Part shown: positions 13,105 to 38,514 of the stretch, one piece after another
Layout of the letters: every line of letters starts with the position of its first letter
Position numbering within the stretch: position 1 is the first letter of the stretch
Source of the DNA: Craspedostauros australis
Lineage: Eukaryota; Bacillariophyta; Bacillariophyceae; Mastogloiales; Achnanthaceae
Length of the DNA: 64,000 nucleotides
NCBI GenBank assembly: GCA_026770025.1
Contig: JAMXDE010000009.1
Span: 496,001-560,000, forward strand
Direction: 5' to 3'
Made by a program: the position numbers and the translations under genes
The notes under the pieces: model-generated
Databases searched by the model: none
The model's input: only the letters and a program-made list of their open reading frames with translations
What the model was told of the DNA's origin: nothing

Positions 13105-16100
13105 TCATGCTTCCTCATCTTGTGATCCGTCAGATGTCCACTGTGATCTCTTCGTGTCTGATGCTTGCATGTCGCTGACCATCTTCCATGGGGCGTGCTC
13201 CACCAAGGCGGCGCCGTTCGCTGCTGAGCCCTTTCTCATCATCACAAACGACATTTGGTGCATCAGACCATCGATGTAGGATGTTCCCAAGGACAGCGTG
13301 GAAAACACACCGAAATGACCGCTGACGATGGCGTCATCGATCACTGCCCTATCAGCAAATGTGAACAGCGGAGCGTCACAGATGCGGGATCCAAAGTACA
13401 ACATCTTTCCCTGGATGGTCGATCCTCGGAATCGCAACGCAGCATTCATCATCGGTGTGCCCCAAACAACTGCCTCGAAGGACCACGACTGAAAGAAATT
13501 GCTGTAGGACAAGTAGACCATATACAATGAAATCGACCATGGCCTTCCGCGTTCAACGCCTCCCAAGAGAGTGATGGTGACGATCACTCGATAGAAAACG
13601 AGCCAGATGAGGGTCTGGATGATGGTGGATGCCGCAATGGCAACCGGAACCAGCGCCGTCGTCGTGTCTGGCTTGAGTATGATCGCCAACAGCTCATATG
13701 ATGGGATGAGGCTGGCCGCCACTGCTGCAAGGACGATGATATGCAGCAGGGTGTTGTTGATCATGATCGTGAAGAACTGGGATGCGGAGAGAGGCACGTT
13801 GTTTGGATGATGCTCGGTGTTGATCATATCGCTGGTGACGTGAGCGCCAGGAGTCACCATGGCTCTGCGGATGGTCACGCCAGGACCGCATGCCAGCGTC
13901 ATGCCGATGGTGCTGTCTTCGATGGTGATCGCCTTGTATCGGCCATCTTCTTCGACATCGACGTCACAAAAGGACATAAAGGATCGCCTGACCGTGACGA
14001 GGTCCAGCTTGGATGGGGGGAACAGGATTGTCAACGCCCTCGATCTCATATCGATGTCCATGCCGTGTGCGATGAGGACGAGGTTCCAAAGTTGGGAGTA
14101 CAATGTCAAGTCGAGGATCAGTGTTGTCCCGACGAAGAAGTGGAAGTCACAAGCCCAGTCAGCAAACTTGGAGAATGTTCCTGTCCGCGCTAGACCGGAT
14201 CGCTTCTTGCCGATCAGCACCCACTTGAGAATGATGCTGGTGATCACGAAGCAGACGGACGTGAGGCCAAAAAGGACGATCCAGTAGACGATGGGGGAGT
14301 ACCTCCAATCTGGAAGCCCATCTCCGACCAACTGATCAGCAGCCACGAAGCATGCGAAGGCGAAGTACAGCTCGACGGCGAGCCAAACAAGCTTCATTGT
14401 TTCCAGCACGGTCGATGGGCTGGTGGATGTGTCGGATGCCGTGTCCCCACTCGCTGTTCCAGTTGCGGATGCATCGTCATCGCCCTTGAGAGTCGAAGAA
14501 GGAGCATCGACAAATGCTGGGTTGCCTCTGATCGAGGTGTTTGGTGGTGCTTGAGCACCTTCCCCAAGCACGGACATGCGCTGGACCTGACAGCCAGAGC
14601 CGACGCTGGTTCCAGCAAGCAAGGCGCCATTGACCATAGCGTTGGATCCAACCTGAGTCTTGCGAAACCTCACGCTGGGGCCTTCCTGCTCATCCTTCCA
14701 CGGGCCGAACATGCGGCATCGGATGTTCGTGTTGACCGTGGCACCAGCACCAACATCGACCAGGTCAAACTCCCGGACGGTCCCGTTCACGCTGGCCGAA
14801 CGATGGATGTCGGCACCCATCAGGTAGTAGAACAGCGTCATCAAAGGTGTGTTGCCAATGATGCGGCCGACGAAGCGCTCCCAGATATCGACCAACCGAT
14901 CGACGAACCACCACCTGATGAAATATATGTTGGTCTGATTGGCATACCCTTCTGTGTATCTGCCAATGACAATCCACTTCGAGAGGATGATCACGAAGGT
15001 GAGCGTAATAGCCCAGACTGGGACGATCAATGGGAGCAGCACCCATTCATGACCGGAGAGGGCGTCGGAGTCGGCAATGGCTTTTCCAACTTCGTACGCT
15101 GGGACGATGGGGAGCGAGAAGATGAGGACTGCGACGAGCACACCGATGGCCTGGATGATGGCGACGGTCGATTGGGACAGAAACTTCTCATTCGGGATGG
15201 AGAGGATCCTCTTGAGGGTTGGGAGGTTTGTTTGTAGGGGCTCTCCCTTTGATGCCTCGAGGAAAGTCTTGAGATCCATCACTCTCGGAAAGAGCTGGGT
15301 GATATGTGCGGGAAGGGTCGTGTTGTATCGCTCAGAAAGGGACTGGCGGAGCTCCAGCTCCATCATGGAGGACAATCCAACATCCTTCCACTCATCGTCG
15401 GGGTTGACTTCAGTTCCTGTACAGCTCTTCACAAGGTCATAGAAGTCCATCTCTTCGATGTTGACGTTCTCGATGATTGACTTTCTCATCGAGAGTCGAT
15501 TGGATTGACTTGCAAGATTGCTGTCGTGCGAACTGAAGAAGTTCGATTTTCTGATGACATCCAGCACCGTCTTCTGCGTTCCTTCATGGAGACGCTGGCG
15601 ATTTTGGCGTCTCTGGATCTTTCCGCTCGTCGTTTTGGAGATGGATCGCTCTTCCACGGCTGCGACTGTTGCCGGTGTCAATCCGATCTGTGAGATGACG
15701 TTCCTTCTGACTTGTTGGCAGGCCGTCTCGGCATCCTTCGCGTGGCTAGCTCGGATCTCGAAGACGATTTCCAGCTGCCCATCGTTGGACGAGAAGGCGG
15801 CCACGCAACCTGGACGGACAGCGGACGATGCCTCCTCGACGGCATGTTCGATGTCTTGGGGATAGTAGTTGACACCGTTGACGATGATGATGTCCTTCTT
15901 GCGGCCGCAGATGTAGAGGTAGTCGTCTTGATAGAATCCGTAGTCACCTGTGCGCAAGTACATCTTGCCATCGGCACCGACATGGGCATCGGACGATGAA
16001 TCACCCTCCACTCGCAGCGTGGCTTGGAAGGTCCCCTTGCTGAGCTGTGGCTGATTGTAGTATCCAGCGGCAACGGACGCTCCCGCGATCCAGATCTCCC

Positions 16101-17538
16101 CGGTGACGTTGTCTGGGCGTTGCACGCGAGTGTCCGGGTCCACGATGATGATATTGATGGAGCTGTGCAGATTGCTGCGCTGGGCGATGGCGATGAATGG
16201 TTGGAGATCTTCATCTGGTCTCTTGGTGGAGAGATGGAAGCCATGGTTGTAGCTGACTCCGACGACGTTCTCCGCCAGTCCGTACCCTGCGATGAACCAG
16301 TCCTTGCGCAAGTTGTACTGGCCGAATGCATCGGCGAAGTTCTTCTCGGTGTCAAGCCGGATTGGTTCAGCGGCGTTCTGGAGATGAATCACGCTTGAGA
16401 GGTCCAGGTTGGGGATGGGATTAGTCTGCCCTTTGGGGCTCTCCAGAGCCTCGTTGTACTTGCGGGTGACCAGCCGATAACCGAAGTCAGGGGCGGCGCT
16501 GAAATGGCACTTGTGCTGGGACATGAGGTCGACCCAGAGCAACGGGTTGCGGATGAACGAGACCGGTGATATCATATGGAGACGAAAGGCACCGGCCAAA
16601 GGTTGAATGCCCAACTGGATCAGACCCATGTCGTGGTACTGAGGCAGCCAGGAGCATGCTGTGATCTGCTTTGGTGTTTTGCGTCTATCACTCAAATCAT
16701 TTTCAAAGCAATTCAAGCAACCACCATGGAGAAGTTCGATGTTGGCTCTCAGAGCGCCGTGGGTCACCATGACGCCCTTGGGGTTGCCGGTGCTTCCAGA
16801 TGTATACTGGAGGAAGGCGAGGTCCGAGCCTTTGATGTTGGGTTCATCGAATGAAGGTGGCGACGACGATGAGCGGCCGGACATGAGGCTGGAAAGGAAG
16901 CCATTCTTGGCTTGCTTGGGGTTGTTCTTTCTCTTGTTCTTGTCGGTGATAAACGGATCGTGACGGATGATGCGATCGGTGACTTGGTATTTCACCCCGC
17001 TTGGCCACATGGCGCGGCTCTTCGATACTGGGTTGGCTCGATCGGCGGTTCGAAGAAGATTGATGGATGTTTGGGTGAGGATGAGTGCTGGAGCGCAATC
17101 CTCGACCACCTTGTTCACCTTGGTGAGCGACTTGACGAGCGGCGGTCCAGGAGGATAGACCAGCACGGCAGTCACGCCTGCACGGAGACATCCCACGAAC
17201 ATGGCGAAGAAGTGCAGACCGAAGTCGTAGCAGAGAACGACACGGTCGCCTTTGTTGGCGCCCCACTTGTTGCGGATGAGGTGAGCGCAGTGTCCTGCTT
17301 CATCCCAGAGCTGTTGGAAGGTGTAGTTATTGATTGGCTTTCCCTTCTCGTTGTACCAGGTGGAGAAGACGGTGTCGGACTTGAGTTCGACGATGTACTT
17401 GATGTGTTCAACGAAGGACTTGGTTTGGATGGACTTGTGGATGATCTCGTGCTCAGTGGCGTTGGCGTTGGTGGTGCCAGCTTCGATGTCATCGTCGACG
17501 GCGCGGTTTGCATCGGAGGGAGCGGATGGGTTGCTCAT
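13105..17538 (-). CDS. FAAL-ACP-membrane synthetase (Pls-type terminal domains)
   Basis: Intronless, 1,477 residues, ATG at 17538. Residues about 35-650 are an adenylate-forming domain closest in pattern to fatty-acyl-AMP ligases: FLQYTSGSTGNPKGVMVTHG (about 243-262), WLPQYHDMGLIQLG, NAAEPIR, YGLAE (419-423), LRTGDYG, GRKKDIIIVNG (545-555) and a catalytic Lys in TTSGKIQRR. Residues about 695-765 are a carrier domain with the phosphopantetheine Ser in DVGLSSMMEL (Ser724). The rest is membrane protein: three pairs of hydrophobic helices (starting near residues 790, 1075 and 1270), each followed by a soluble hexapeptide-like beta-helix segment rich in V-G-x-G and A-x-V patterns. This order (adenylation, carrier, six helices, three tandem soluble domains) is that of bacterial epsilon-poly-lysine-synthetase-type enzymes, which have no condensation domain. 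Inference: it activates a fatty or hydroxy acid, loads it on its own carrier and passes it to an amine or hydroxyl at a membrane. Confidence 0.85.
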   Translation of the reverse strand: MSNPSAPSDANRAVDDDIEAGTTNANATEHEIIHKSIQTKSFVEHIKYIVELKSDTVFSTWYNEKGKPINNYTFQQLWDEAGHCAHLIRNKWGANKGDRVVLCYDFGLHFFAMFVGCLRAGVTAVLVYPPGPPLVKSLTKVNKVVEDCAPALILTQTSINLLRTADRANPVSKSRAMWPSGVKYQVTDRIIRHDPFITDKNKRKNNPKQAKNGFLSSLMSGRSSSSPPSFDEPNIKGSDLAFLQYTSGSTGNPKGVMVTHGALRANIELLHGGCLNCFENDLSDRRKTPKQITACSWLPQYHDMGLIQLGIQPLAGAFRLHMISPVSFIRNPLLWVDLMSQHKCHFSAAPDFGYRLVTRKYNEALESPKGQTNPIPNLDLSSVIHLQNAAEPIRLDTEKNFADAFGQYNLRKDWFIAGYGLAENVVGVSYNHGFHLSTKRPDEDLQPFIAIAQRSNLHSSINIIIVDPDTRVQRPDNVTGEIWIAGASVAAGYYNQPQLSKGTFQATLRVEGDSSSDAHVGADGKMYLRTGDYGFYQDDYLYICGRKKDIIIVNGVNYYPQDIEHAVEEASSAVRPGCVAAFSSNDGQLEIVFEIRASHAKDAETACQQVRRNVISQIGLTPATVAAVEERSISKTTSGKIQRRQNRQRLHEGTQKTVLDVIRKSNFFSSHDSNLASQSNRLSMRKSIIENVNIEEMDFYDLVKSCTGTEVNPDDEWKDVGLSSMMELELRQSLSERYNTTLPAHITQLFPRVMDLKTFLEASKGEPLQTNLPTLKRILSIPNEKFLSQSTVAIIQAIGVLVAVLIFSLPIVPAYEVGKAIADSDALSGHEWVLLPLIVPVWAITLTFVIILSKWIVIGRYTEGYANQTNIYFIRWWFVDRLVDIWERFVGRIIGNTPLMTLFYYLMGADIHRSASVNGTVREFDLVDVGAGATVNTNIRCRMFGPWKDEQEGPSVRFRKTQVGSNAMVNGALLAGTSVGSGCQVQRMSVLGEGAQAPPNTSIRGNPAFVDAPSSTLKGDDDASATGTASGDTASDTSTSPSTVLETMKLVWLAVELYFAFACFVAADQLVGDGLPDWRYSPIVYWIVLFGLTSVCFVITSIILKWVLIGKKRSGLARTGTFSKFADWACDFHFFVGTTLILDLTLYSQLWNLVLIAHGMDIDMRSRALTILFPPSKLDLVTVRRSFMSFCDVDVEEDGRYKAITIEDSTIGMTLACGPGVTIRRAMVTPGAHVTSDMINTEHHPNNVPLSASQFFTIMINNTLLHIIVLAAVAASLIPSYELLAIILKPDTTTALVPVAIAASTIIQTLIWLVFYRVIVTITLLGGVERGRPWSISLYMVYLSYSNFFQSWSFEAVVWGTPMMNAALRFRGSTIQGKMLYFGSRICDAPLFTFADRAVIDDAIVSGHFGVFSTLSLGTSYIDGLMHQMSFVMMRKGSAANGAALVEHAPWKMVSDMQASDTKRSQWTSDGSQDEEA

Positions 17539-19600: not shown

Positions 19601-23848
<4,248 letters not shown>

Positions 23849-32712: not shown

Positions 32713-35700
32713 TTAAGAGCACCGCGGACGGACGCGCCTTCGCTGCCTTGTCCTTGCCGCACTTGCTCCTCGCTTCCGACTTCGTCCTACCTGCCGATGT
32801 GGACTTCGCCGCAACCCTGCCTGCCGGGCCGCCTGCACATGGCGAACCCATAGCACTTGGTTGCTCACCGACTGCTGTCGCACCGCCACTTCCGTGGTAG
32901 CTGACATCAGCCGCACATCATCCCCTTGTAGTCCTGCAGTTCCTTTCTGCCACTCGTTCCTAACAGCCGCCGCTGCATTTCTAGCGGCAACCGTCACTGC
33001 CTTCACTTCCTCGCTCTCATGCAGCACCTTATTGCGTGCTGTCCACGCTGCCCATCGCACCTCCCACAGGCCCACCATCGCCCTTGCCACCCAATTGGTT
33101 GGTGTGCCTGGGTGCTCATGAACTTCCATCGTGCGTCCTTGCACGTCGCGCCATAACTCAGACCATCTTCCTCGCACCATCATGCCCCATCCAAGGCGAG
33201 CTTGCTCCTGTACGGCCTTTGTCAGTAGCACCCCGCCTTCGATAGCGACCTCACGCCCATTACACCACGCTCTTACTTGTCTCACCATCTCTCGGACCAT
33301 ATATGGATCCCCTCTGGCCGCCATCATCGTCGTCTCCCACTCCTTGATCGCCACGTCCCGTACCGTCGTGGCGGCAGGGTGTTGGCATTGCATCACATGG
33401 TCTGTTGTTTCTTCTTCGCTGTTGCAGACTGGACATAAATCGCCGGCCCAAAACTTCCACTTGCGCATGTTCCGACCCACTGGCCCAAAACTGCACGCAT
33501 GCTTAGCCACCCACTTCCGTCGTGACGGGTTGATGCCGCGCATAGCAACCTTCGCTGATGCAATGTCCACCCTTGCTGGCTGGCCGTCCTGGATCCGGCC
33601 TGTTCTCCGTTGCCACCGCACCGTCCTTTGGCCTTGGACATAGTCACGCACCTCCTCGGAGATATCGGTGCACACCTTCCTTGCTCCTAGCCACACTGAC
33701 CATTCCTTTGGATCCCATTCCACATCTCGGAACTCCGTGTCCTCCGAGTGCGCTTCGCCTGCATACTTGTCCACGTCATCATTCCAATAGGTGAACTCGT
33801 CCTTCTTCACTCCTCGCTCTCTTTCGAGCTGATGCCCGTACACATGCTGATACTGTAGTCGCACGGGGAGCCGCCGTTGTATGCTCCGTATCTCTCGTAA
33901 GATGTCAAAGTGGCGAACCGACGTTCCCACATCTTGCGTGTACTGCACCGCTTGAATGCCTGCCATCTTGTTGTCGCATGCCACGATTATGGTGACCCCT
34001 GACCAGTCCTGCTGCTCTGGGTATTTTCGTATCACTTCTTCCACTCGTCGCAACGCGTGCATAATACCACCGAGCTCGGCACGATACGCACTTTGGACTT
34101 CCTGCCGCCCTTGCACTGCCATCGCCGCTGACACCAAGCTTTTCCGTTGGCCCCGCACGTTGAGCGCATACGCCGCCGTACTTCGCCCGTTCTTGAACGA
34201 CCCGTCTGTGCTTACCACCGCTGCCCCTTGTGCCGCGGCCTCAGCCCACGTCTTCTCCGCTGGCCGAAGTTTAGGACTGCCCTTTGCCCGTCGCCGTCGT
34301 GCTCGACTCCCTACTCCTGCCACGCAAAGAGTCCCTCTTCTCGCCCTCACGTACACTGCCAACCAATCGTCTGGCGGATCCTGTGTTGTTTCGCTTGCGC
34401 GTTCGTATCTCTCCATGCCCGGCACTGCTCCTGGCCGCGCGTTCCATCGTCTCCACTCCGTCTGGCCCTCCCTCGTCCACATCTCTTTCCTATCCTCGCT
34501 GCGAATCGCACTGACTTGGTCTTGCCACCATTCCTCGGCTGGCACTGAAACAGCCGCCACTTTCCTGGTAGCTTGCTTCCACAGTGTCCAGTCCTGTCTT
34601 GGTAGCTGCCCTTGTCGCGGCCACAGGACTCCGCACCGTCCTCTCCACTGACCTGATGTGCTCCGCCATTGGCTGCCAACAACCCGCTGTCTCCGTGTGT
34701 CGATCACATCCGCCACGCTGACTGCCTTCATGACAATGCGGCACCGGTTGAGCCTGACTTGCTGCGCTTTGCTGTATCCGATGCGGGCAAATGCCTTCAT
34801 GAGCCATTCGTCTTTATCGTGCAGCAGTCCTGCCGTGTTCGTTTTCTCTCGCAGTTGGATATTGCATTCGTGCACCTCCTTCCACACCGTCTTGACCCAG
34901 CTTTCGGTTGCCAAGAATCCCCATTGGCCAAAATCGATCTCGAACATCGACGACCCTGTTCCGACTTCCAGCTTCATGGCTTGTATGCACCCCCGAAGGA
35001 GCTTGCCAGTCATAGTCGCTCGTTGTCCATGCTCCATGACCATTCTGACGTGCTCCACTATTTGGGTCGTGTGCAGCTCGTGCAAGTTTGCCCCCAGCCA
35101 CTCATGCGATGCGTAGGCCATTTCTCGCGGAAACCCTTTGTTGAATCCGATCTTCGACATCATGGTTTTCCATACTGGTCTCATCACCTTGTGGCATTGG
35201 TCTCGCGACAGTTGTGCCACCGGTAGCACATACTCCAACTTCTTCATGAGTACTGTCCGTATCGCTGTCTCCGCATCTTCCTTGCGCATGCGCCACGTTC
35301 TCACTTGATCAACCCACTTTGCAGCCTTACTCCTCAGAGCTTCTTCGATGGCTGACCCGTTTCCGTCCGGTGCCAGCCTGACTCCTAGTGTCTCGAACGC
35401 CTGTCCCACTCCACTTCTTGGCATGGGCTGTGGCATTCCTGTTGTCCCTCGCATCATTAACTGTGCTGGTGTCTCGGCGTCGTTCGTGTACCTCCATGTC
35501 CCGTCCTCTTCCCATTTGAACCCGATCGCCCACCACATGCACTTTTCTACCACTAGTGCTCCACCCGTTGCTCTCGCCAGACTCTCCCATGATTTCACGC
35601 TCTGTTGCATTCTCTGGATGACTTCTTGTATATCCTCACCTTCGCGTGCGTTGACTACCAAGTCTGTGTCATCCACAAATGCGTAACCCACCATTTGGAT

Positions 35701-38514
35701 GTCCTCTCTGTCCACTGCTGTCTCGATCCGCGCTGTATGTCCTTCCGCTTTCATGATTTCCAGTATTGGCGATGAGATCACCGCCCATATCACTGGCCCT
35801 GCTCCATTCCCTTGGTAAATACCTTGCATTGGTACCACCCATTTGCTTCCACCGTACGTATCATTGGATTCCCCGTACGCTGTGCGAATGTGGTGCTCAA
35901 GTTGCTGGAGTGTGCTGAACATGCATACCACCTCCGATTGTGCTATTCCTTGTCGTTGTAGTCCGATTGACGCAACCGAATGTACTATGCGATCATAGCA
36001 ACTCTTGAGATCGTTGGTGCACACCACCATGGGTGTTCTTGTCTGGCGTGCCCAATCCATCGTGAGCTGTTTGTTCAGCGCATGGTCAATCGCCCGGTGC
36101 CTTTTGCGGCTGCCGTATTGCTCTTCTGCGAACCCGGTTTGCTGTTCTGCTTGTTTCGCCGCTTTCCTTCCGATAGCCTTGTTGGCGAAATTGAAGTCCG
36201 CTTCAAATAGCACAATGGTCCTGAGCTTGTCGACTCGAAAGCTGTTCGCCTTCTTCATCAGCTCCACATCCGTGCCTTTCCGCCATCGCCGATACGAATA
36301 CCCGCTTTTCATGGCTATCGACGTCATGCTTGCTTCAAATTCCGAATTCTTTTGGTGTGCTGCGATTGCTTTGAAATGTCCGAAATGTAATCCCGACGGT
36401 CCTGCTGATGTATCTTCCTTTGCTTTCCTCCATCCGTCTCTGAATTCTTCCGTTGTCATCCCTGCCGGTATTTGCTTTCTCGCTACCGACGACAGCCCTT
36501 GCAGTAGCTTCCTAGCACCTTCATCTACCCATGGTTTCGGATCGTACTGGCCCAATAGCGTTTTCTCAGCTGCTTCCGTCACTCCCAGGTATCCGAACTC
36601 TCTGGCCAATTCCCCATGCATGAATGGTGTTTCTTCCGTCTGTCTGAACCGCCTTTTGTTCTCTTCCATGCATCCTTTTTCGATATCCTCTTTCCCCGTT
36701 CTCTCCACCCAGTTGCCGTTGCCGTCAGGTGCCACCACCATTGAGATCCCTGCTGTCGCCTGTTCTCCTGTTGCCATGCGTATGCGCCGATACGTGGCCC
36801 TGACCCTTTCTTTCCGTCGTAGTTGGTACAGTTGCTGCGCTGTCGCCTCTCCCTTCCCGATTGCCATCTTCTTGCTTTGCGTTGATCTGTCTTGTCTCTC
36901 CTTCTCCCCTCTCGCTGCCGCCAATCCGTCAAGCCAATTTTCTCTTGCCTTGGTTGCCCTCGCCCGAAACTGTTTGAGGTTACCGTATGCTTTCTCTTGC
37001 TCTTGTTGCACTTCTTCGTCACTCTTCCTCATAAGCTCTTTCACTCGTCTGTCTTCGTTCGCTCTCTTGGCCAATCGCACGATCGTAGTTGACGACACCT
37101 TCATCCCTCGTCGCTTCCGTGCAATGTTATTCCATAGCCCTATCGCGGCCTCGATCATCTTGTACTCTCTGGAATATGGCATGCCTCCCATGCGTAATCT
37201 TCGGCACGCCTTGTCTGCCTGCCAAATCCCTTGCACTCGTACTTGATCCAGTGCTTCCGCCTCTGCCTCCATCGCCGCTGTCCACGTCTCTGACGCCTGC
37301 TTTTCCAGTTGAAATGCTCGCTTCCGCGCCTTGTGTTGTTTCAGGTATGCTTCATACTTCTCGTTGAATTTTTGTACGATGCGTGGATCCTCCGTCTTGA
37401 CACGCCTCGATACCGCTTTTCGTAACGATGGCATCGATTGTCCAAGCACCGCCTCCATGCTGATATCAACCCACAGACACCGGTGGTCTGCTTGTTTCAT
37501 CTGGATCCCTTCGTCCCAGTCGCTGACTCCTGCGCCTTCCACGGTCACGGCTATGGATGCAAATATCCCGTCGATCGGGACTTTGCCTAACCTATGGGTC
37601 GGCGTCCGGCGCACATCCTCTCCTGCTTTCTCCATGACATTCACTAACCCTGTTGCGGATTGGAACTGCCTCATGGTCGTCGAGTCGGTGTCCTCATTGC
37701 AGTCCATGATGACAACAATATGGTCTCCGCTTCGCTTCCACTTCTGCACTTCTTTTTGTAGGTCATCCATCATCGCTGCCCTTGGTTCCTTATCCATGTT
37801 TCTCTCGTTGAAGTACCGTCTCTGCTGTGCGTGCGTGTTGAGAAATCCCTTACTTCGCGGTCGGCACGGCCGATATGCCGTTGCTACCCGGAGTGTTTGT
37901 TGGTTCGCCCCTCGGTATCGTTGCCATACCCACCTGCCCAGTCGCGTCGCGTCTTCGCCTTGCTCCATGATTCTTATTGCTGCTTGGAACCGACTTATCA
38001 TCGCCACTCCGCCCCATTGCTTGCTGTACGTTGGCTCGTTGGTTTGGTTGTTTGCTGTTCTTGCCACCGATGTGCCGGTTGGCCACCACTCCTTGGTTCT
38101 TCCTTTGAGCGAGTGTTCCGTCGTCGTCGTTCTCCAATCCACGTTGACTTCCGTGATCCCGAACACATCAAATTCCCCCTCGTTCATCCATTGCTTCAAT
38201 CCTTCATCCACATCCCCTGGTCGTCTTCCTAGCCCCCCGAAGTTTTGTAGCCCTATTCGCAGGTGGCCTTTCTGCTTCCTCAGCATCGTCCTCCTCACCC
38301 TGTTCGTCCTCCTCCTTCCTTGTTCCACTTCGTCTTCTCCACGTCGAGTCCGTTGCGGTATAACGGCCTCTATTGTGGGCGCTTGTTCCGGGCTCTGGGT
38401 CTGTCGTTGTGCTTCCACCAACTGTTGCCCTTGCCCGTTAGGTCTAACCCTTTTCCGGGTCCTCTTCCGAGTCCCCGTCGCTTCTTTTGTCGTGCACCTC
38501 GTCCAGGTTGTCAC
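32713..38514 (-). CDS. Retrotransposon ORF2: endonuclease, reverse transcriptase, RNase H
   Basis: Open for 1,933 codons; the first true ATG is at 38286, after 76 basic residues, and the upstream end overlaps ORF1. Domains in order: apurinic-type endonuclease, about 85-350 (LRIGLQNFGG, FGITEVNVDW, VVIMDCNED, PIDGIFAS, ADHRCLWVD); reverse transcriptase with VVCTNDLKSCYDRI (about 838), YQGNGAGPVIW and FVDDTDLVV (about 948); RNase H with VVSTDGSFKNG (about 1435), YRAELGGIMHAL, VACDNKMAG and HVYGH (about 1558), so the D-E-D-H set is present; CCHC-like CPVCNSEEETTDHVMQC (about 1698); and WAAWTARNKVLHE. The QGNGAGP/FVDD variants instead of QGxxxSP/YxDD recur in stramenopile elements. It may be made by +1 frameshift from ORF1 or by reinitiation. 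Confidence 0.88.
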   Translation of the reverse strand: MTTWTRCTTKEATGTRKRTRKRVRPNGQGQQLVEAQRQTQSPEQAPTIEAVIPQRTRRGEDEVEQGRRRTNRVRRTMLRKQKGHLRIGLQNFGGLGRRPGDVDEGLKQWMNEGEFDVFGITEVNVDWRTTTTEHSLKGRTKEWWPTGTSVARTANNQTNEPTYSKQWGGVAMISRFQAAIRIMEQGEDATRLGRWVWQRYRGANQQTLRVATAYRPCRPRSKGFLNTHAQQRRYFNERNMDKEPRAAMMDDLQKEVQKWKRSGDHIVVIMDCNEDTDSTTMRQFQSATGLVNVMEKAGEDVRRTPTHRLGKVPIDGIFASIAVTVEGAGVSDWDEGIQMKQADHRCLWVDISMEAVLGQSMPSLRKAVSRRVKTEDPRIVQKFNEKYEAYLKQHKARKRAFQLEKQASETWTAAMEAEAEALDQVRVQGIWQADKACRRLRMGGMPYSREYKMIEAAIGLWNNIARKRRGMKVSSTTIVRLAKRANEDRRVKELMRKSDEEVQQEQEKAYGNLKQFRARATKARENWLDGLAAARGEKERQDRSTQSKKMAIGKGEATAQQLYQLRRKERVRATYRRIRMATGEQATAGISMVVAPDGNGNWVERTGKEDIEKGCMEENKRRFRQTEETPFMHGELAREFGYLGVTEAAEKTLLGQYDPKPWVDEGARKLLQGLSSVARKQIPAGMTTEEFRDGWRKAKEDTSAGPSGLHFGHFKAIAAHQKNSEFEASMTSIAMKSGYSYRRWRKGTDVELMKKANSFRVDKLRTIVLFEADFNFANKAIGRKAAKQAEQQTGFAEEQYGSRKRHRAIDHALNKQLTMDWARQTRTPMVVCTNDLKSCYDRIVHSVASIGLQRQGIAQSEVVCMFSTLQQLEHHIRTAYGESNDTYGGSKWVVPMQGIYQGNGAGPVIWAVISSPILEIMKAEGHTARIETAVDREDIQMVGYAFVDDTDLVVNAREGEDIQEVIQRMQQSVKSWESLARATGGALVVEKCMWWAIGFKWEEDGTWRYTNDAETPAQLMMRGTTGMPQPMPRSGVGQAFETLGVRLAPDGNGSAIEEALRSKAAKWVDQVRTWRMRKEDAETAIRTVLMKKLEYVLPVAQLSRDQCHKVMRPVWKTMMSKIGFNKGFPREMAYASHEWLGANLHELHTTQIVEHVRMVMEHGQRATMTGKLLRGCIQAMKLEVGTGSSMFEIDFGQWGFLATESWVKTVWKEVHECNIQLREKTNTAGLLHDKDEWLMKAFARIGYSKAQQVRLNRCRIVMKAVSVADVIDTRRQRVVGSQWRSTSGQWRGRCGVLWPRQGQLPRQDWTLWKQATRKVAAVSVPAEEWWQDQVSAIRSEDRKEMWTREGQTEWRRWNARPGAVPGMERYERASETTQDPPDDWLAVYVRARRGTLCVAGVGSRARRRRAKGSPKLRPAEKTWAEAAAQGAAVVSTDGSFKNGRSTAAYALNVRGQRKSLVSAAMAVQGRQEVQSAYRAELGGIMHALRRVEEVIRKYPEQQDWSGVTIIVACDNKMAGIQAVQYTQDVGTSVRHFDILREIRSIQRRLPVRLQYQHVYGHQLERERGVKKDEFTYWNDDVDKYAGEAHSEDTEFRDVEWDPKEWSVWLGARKVCTDISEEVRDYVQGQRTVRWQRRTGRIQDGQPARVDIASAKVAMRGINPSRRKWVAKHACSFGPVGRNMRKWKFWAGDLCPVCNSEEETTDHVMQCQHPAATTVRDVAIKEWETTMMAARGDPYMVREMVRQVRAWCNGREVAIEGGVLLTKAVQEQARLGWGMMVRGRWSELWRDVQGRTMEVHEHPGTPTNWVARAMVGLWEVRWAAWTARNKVLHESEEVKAVTVAARNAAAAVRNEWQKGTAGLQGDDVRLMSATTEVAVRQQSVSNQVLWVRHVQAARQAGLRRSPHRQVGRSRKRGASAARTRQRRRVRPRCS

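Follow-up and report, generated by a model that had tools for sequence, protein, structure and literature searches.

The locus

The window, by which we mean the whole stretch of 64,000 nucleotides analysed here, covers positions 496,001 to 560,000 of contig JAMXDE010000009.1 of Craspedostauros australis. At 13105-17538 its minus strand carries an intronless open reading frame (ORF) of 1477 aa plus stop, a single reading frame that an initial annotation made from the sequence alone had already placed there. By sequence comparison and structure prediction the encoded protein combines a FAAL-like adenylation domain, a carrier domain in which the expected serine is present, and a Pls/PosA-type membrane tail with six helices and three beta-helices of the hexapeptide-acyltransferase fold.

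All domains described below are encoded on the minus strand. The FAAL-like domain (residues ~40-655, 15574-17421) was located by profile and structure-database matches and contains the motifs YTSGSTGNPKG, WLPQYHDMGL, YGLAEN, YLRTGD and SGKIQR, the last of which includes Lys640. The carrier (phosphopantetheine) domain follows at residues ~690-765 (15244-15471), and Ser724 in its GLSSM motif (15367-15369) is the expected phosphopantetheine attachment site. In the tail a first predicted pair of membrane helices (residues ~786-861, 14956-15183) precedes C1, the first left-handed beta-helix domain (residues ~883-1010, 14509-14892), which was placed by the AlphaFold model and comparisons. A second predicted pair (residues ~1042-1112, 14203-14415) leads into the second soluble domain C2 (residues ~1113-1250, 13789-14202; from the model, with the limits used for the ratios of nonsynonymous to synonymous substitution rates, dN/dS). 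The third predicted pair (residues ~1252-1328, 13555-13785) is followed by the third soluble domain C3, taken from the model (residues ~1346-1455, 13174-13503), which contains the candidate catalytic base His1408 (13315-13317).

A Pls-type tail behind a FAAL-like front

When the last 741 residues were scanned alone they matched TIGR02353, the profile of the Pls/PosA terminal domain, with an E-value of 1.6e-18 and 66.4 bits. This is far below the curated cut-off of 423.1 bits, a value that all 43 matches in the same genome fall short of, and the best stretch covers positions 21-321 of the 695 in the profile. At a loose threshold TIGR02353 also matched 13 of 14 control genomes, in one of them above the cut-off, and hexapeptide repeats alone are thus a weak argument. 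The match of the tail to Pls extends over the membrane helices and the KWxxIGR and RWW motifs. A tblastn search against plasmids returned 27 records; among the 25 listed, 14 are annotated as Pls/PosA at the match site and the other 11 carry no other name there (five without a feature at the site, six unannotated). With blastp the tail matched the Pls of Azospirillum thermophilum at 1e-15 and 22% identity, and it is ~17-20% identical to bacterial tails. These comparisons show homology between the tail and the Pls/PosA terminal domain. Six membrane helices are predicted as three pairs. Behind each pair comes a left-handed beta-helix, which is the fold of hexapeptide acyltransferases, and the AlphaFold model based on a mixed algal and bacterial alignment is good (pLDDT 82.9, pTM 0.86). 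The initial annotation had proposed a Pls-type terminal domain for the C-terminal ~700 residues as well as three helix pairs with hexapeptide-like domains. Both proposals survived the profile search and the structure prediction, the first through the TIGR02353, plasmid and blastp matches and the second through the agreement of predicted helices and model.

The front matched the AMP-binding profile at 1.6e-54. Its ten best NCBIfam rows (E-values 1.2e-86 to 2.9e-53) comprise eight fatty-acyl-AMP/fatty-acyl-ACP ligase models, one NRPS/PKS model and one 'CoA ligase' model; the curated whole-protein cut-offs of these front models were in no case reached. FAAL structures in the PDB matched it at up to 1e-72. 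The amino-acid A-domain model AA-adenyl-dom scored weaker (1.7e-35 compared to ~1e-86 for the FAAL models), and we rejected an ordinary Pls-type amino-acid synthetase as far as the front domain is concerned. The NCBIfam and PDB matches thus bear out the earlier description of the front as FAAL-like and not amino-acid-specific. The carrier had been predicted as well, with Ser724; it reached 22.5 bits as an isolated segment (cut-off 20.8), whereas the whole-protein scan gave it a sub-threshold 17.7 bits. Both Lys640 and Ser724 are conserved in 35 of 35 paralogues (L045 was left out because its FAAL and tail do not differ from those of L044). Across the same 35 paralogues the otherwise conserved FAAL domain varies most at residues 273-287 (window 16678-16722), between the A3 motif and WLPQYHD; that it has a role in acyl choice would be a guess.

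Copies of the gene and exchange between them

The genome assembly has 74.8 Mb in 90 contigs. TIGR02353 gave 43 matches at 38 family loci, where three loci were matched twice and two matches are other hexapeptide stretches, and hence the family has at least 38 loci. Intact ORFs of 1477-1595 aa were found at 33 of the 38; the frame of L010 is open from about residue 53 onwards, L019 contains a stop and L033 a frame break, and L030 and L037 are fragments. In a search at the protein level 32 of 65 candidates were scored; among these 32 are the gene in the window and L019, despite its stop. The median pairwise identity among the 36 long ORFs is 0.64. For the 528 pairs among the 33 intact copies the median dN/dS was 0.15 for the FAAL domain, 0.21 for the carrier and 0.26 for the tail. 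The intact copies are under purifying selection, and a chance ORF or pseudogene can be ruled out on the strength of these copies and their dN/dS. The tail is more variable than the FAAL domain, with a median identity of 0.55 compared to 0.80. There are also two phosphopantetheinyl-transferase loci in the genome.

Some copies appear to be interrupted or very young. An additional FAAL stretch at C20:629529 was not counted as a separate gene and may be the front of an interrupted copy at C20:621238. Within C20:618738-630797 the L037 tail fragment and a FAAL fragment lie ~7.8 kb apart on one strand, separated by a long ORF on the opposite strand, and the two are perhaps one copy split by an insertion. 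L044 and L045 (C27:485015-497426) are identical in FAAL and tail, stand head to head ~3.6 kb apart and are a very recent inverted duplicate.

The two halves of the protein differ in their divergence. Between L021 and L023 dS was 0.06 in the FAAL domain and 1.33 in the tail, and for L015-L017 the values were 0.14 and 1.80. The reverse was seen for L018-L021 (tail 0.07, FAAL 0.64) and L009-L046 (tail 0.14, FAAL 0.74). In 12 pairs the sliding identity falls sharply near the linker between FAAL and carrier (~630-690) or past the carrier (~750-870). When 32 copies were clustered, 10 types of FAAL and 9 of tail were distinguished, which occur in 15 combinations. The FAAL types {L014,L015,L017,L020,L028,L040} and {L035,L046} are each paired with both the tail types {L009,L017,L020,...} and {L014,L015,...}, which requires recombination. 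In the approximately unbiased (AU) test on 32 copies the tail tree was rejected by the FAAL data (log-likelihood difference 1640, p = 4.9e-6) and the FAAL tree by the tail data (4164, p = 1.4e-54). The carrier tracks the tail (identity correlation 0.82-0.84) more than the FAAL domain (0.55-0.67). These comparisons indicate that paralogues have reassorted their FAAL and carrier-plus-tail modules. Because the FAAL half is more alike, exchange could simply favour this half. Assembly chimeras are an unlikely source of the mosaics, since both halves have diverged afterwards (see the dS values above) and many copies are involved. Retrocopies are unsupported for several close pairs that have similar flanks too (13 pairs checked); L015-L017 and L009-L023, which belong to these 13, have no similar flank on either side.

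Surroundings and host

The gene adjoins a 1272-aa ORF on the plus strand (window 19854-23672) that gave no Pfam match at 0.01. At 32713-38514 the minus strand has a 1933-aa ORF whose matches to endonuclease, reverse transcriptase and, weakly, RNase H mark it as a non-LTR-type retroelement. Across the genome we found 88 silicon-transporter matches, 32 of them above 760 bits (four of these with internal stops), and 61 light-harvesting-protein matches, which together point to a photosynthetic, silicon-transporter-bearing alga, most likely a diatom. The silicon-transporter family is very large: 28 of the matches above 760 bits are free of internal stops, and there are many fragments besides. Three of 39 FAAL-tail loci (L013, L018 and L021, on C11 and C9) have a silicon-transporter gene at a distance of no more than 6 kb, where 0.42 would be expected. 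L018 and L021 have their tail and 900 bases downstream in common at 98%, which makes them one duplicated block. We therefore rejected this linkage as a functional clue: it is too weak, as two of the three linked loci are copies of one block.

Function

We consider the protein to be probably a membrane-anchored, self-loading N/O-acyltransferase. The FAAL domain would convert a fatty or similar acid to its acyl-AMP, a step that is well supported by family membership. The acyl group would then be moved onto phosphopantetheine at Ser724, for which the serine and Lys640 speak. The tail, acting at the membrane face as a pseudo-trimer within one chain, would transfer it to an amine or hydroxyl acceptor, as its homology and predicted fold suggest, and N- or O-acyl conjugates, which the initial annotation had proposed, are our best inference for the product. 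Its other proposal, a short lipid-capped polymer, found no support but is compatible with the data. The candidate catalytic residues of this transfer are His1408 and Glu(Asp)1388 of C3. In a comparison of 56 tails (20 algal, 36 bacterial) His1408 is the only His kept in 20/20 algal and 36/36 bacterial sequences, and it is present in 33/33 paralogues reaching that point (again leaving out L045). Glu1388 was found in 19/20 algal and 36/36 bacterial tails; the window protein has Asp, and the 33 paralogues reaching this position have Glu in 30 cases and Asp in 3.

Several observations weigh against the acyltransferase reading. In bacterial tails the His is part of (Q)THL(Y/F)ED, whereas the algal family has GHxGVF-like sequences in which, the His excepted, the motif is not kept. 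The acid pair of HL(Y/F)ED is thus not conserved in the algal C3, and the bacterial chemistry may not carry over. When aligned with serine acetyltransferases, the bacterial ALQTHLYED falls on ILQSVTLGG and the His on no His, so that the argument for a catalytic role of His1408 is its conservation. At the site where the FAAL-specific insertion is expected the window protein has 14 residues fewer than 7r7f, which makes the rejection of CoA uncertain. Finally, a first AlphaFold run with paralogues only gave a poor model (pLDDT 54.8).

The same tail would also suit a polymerase, whose front activates a bifunctional acid (an amino- or hydroxy-fatty acid) and whose tail links the units repeatedly as in Pls, yielding a polyamide or polyester. 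The homology to the tails of iterative polymerases and the conserved His1408 and Glu1388 fit this, but the front scores as a plain fatty-acid ligase would, with nothing that points to a bifunctional substrate, the C2 and C3 beta-helices are shorter and the HL(Y/F)ED acids are not kept, and we regard a polymerase as unlikely. Improbable too is a house-keeping acyltransferase of lipid metabolism with a membrane lipid (diacylglycerol, lyso-lipid, sterol or glycolipid) as acceptor. DIP2 acts on diacylglycerol, and a DIP2-like AMP domain fits the C-terminal part of the FAAL domain at 1.7e-8; membrane anchoring is likewise predicted. For a house-keeping step, however, a family of 38 or more loci whose modules were swapped would be unusual. 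The greater variability of the tail might be expected of a non-catalytic anchor or scaffold, in which case the protein would just load an acyl carrier for partners. Given the purifying selection on the tail and a His1408 common to algal and bacterial tails, we think this very improbable.

If the protein is a self-loading acyltransferase, the Pls-type tail would be a general carrier-fed acyl-transfer device that goes beyond poly-amino-acid polymerases and can work behind a different loading domain. With FAAL and carrier-plus-tail modules traded among more than 30 copies, enzymes with varied acyl and acceptor combinations would arise. The large family with swapped fronts and tails suggests an undescribed, diversified attachment of fatty acids at the membrane; its size and mosaic structure would indicate that a silica-using alga makes acylated products of a class not yet described, and its dozens of natural front/tail chimeras would allow the specificities of loading and transfer to be separated experimentally. 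It is a more tentative idea, and one we hold with some doubt, that recombination of the two modules has produced over 30 single-protein synthetases and with them a range of acyl conjugates or lipid polymers made at the membrane. This would be a eukaryotic counterpart of NRPS/PKS module swapping, built on a Pls-type tail.

Relation to known systems

We scanned the genomes of 84,980 species with a mixed tail alignment and found 336 relatives, of which 80, all bacterial, were kept and inspected. Among these 80, 77 have an amino-acid A domain in front and three are cut by the contig end; a FAAL front occurred in none of the 80 kept of 336, and bacterial tails with such a front may be present among the other 256. 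No phage relatives were found, and none of 39 pattern matches on viral contigs is a relative.

Pls and PosA, the synthetases of epsilon-poly-lysine and delta-poly-ornithine, have the same succession within a single chain: an adenylation domain, a carrier and a tail of six helices and three beta-helix domains. They have an amino-acid A domain where the window protein has its FAAL-like front, and of their HL(Y/F)ED in the third domain the algal tail keeps only the His. The accessible part of PMC10522769 describes the terminal-domain layout (six helices in three pairs, three soluble repeats) and Pls homologues in bacteria, archaea, fungi, some Metazoa, Alveolata and Amoebozoa. The initial annotation had considered an acquisition from bacteria possible; the relatives are bacterial and, according to this paper, also fungal and from other eukaryotes. 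A fungal poly-lysine synthetase, Epls, is described in the accessible part of PMC7179176; it is eukaryotic and shares the A - T - C1-C2-C3 layout, but has a lysine-specific front and makes epsilon-poly-lysine. Neither text, in these parts, mentions a FAAL front or diatoms. Other A-ACP-reductase proteins of a different layout occur in three diatoms according to the accessible part of PMC7073580. Our literature searches, whose coverage excluded most subscription journals, returned nothing on FAAL-fronted Pls tails or on such a family in diatoms, and because they showed no such combination we rate a FAAL front on a Pls/PosA-type tail as probably not reported before.

FAALs of the FadD28/FadD32 type and those fronting PKS/NRPS resemble the adenylation domain of the window protein (see the PDB matches above). 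FAALs pass acyl groups to a carrier, and the FAALs known to us load PKS/NRPS or stand alone; in the window protein the carrier and a Pls-type tail continue the same chain. Hexapeptide acyltransferases such as maltose/galactoside O-acetyltransferase, serine acetyltransferase and AntD are homotrimers using acyl-CoA. Compared to these O/N-acyltransferases, the window protein has three copies of the domain in one predicted membrane-bound chain with its own carrier.
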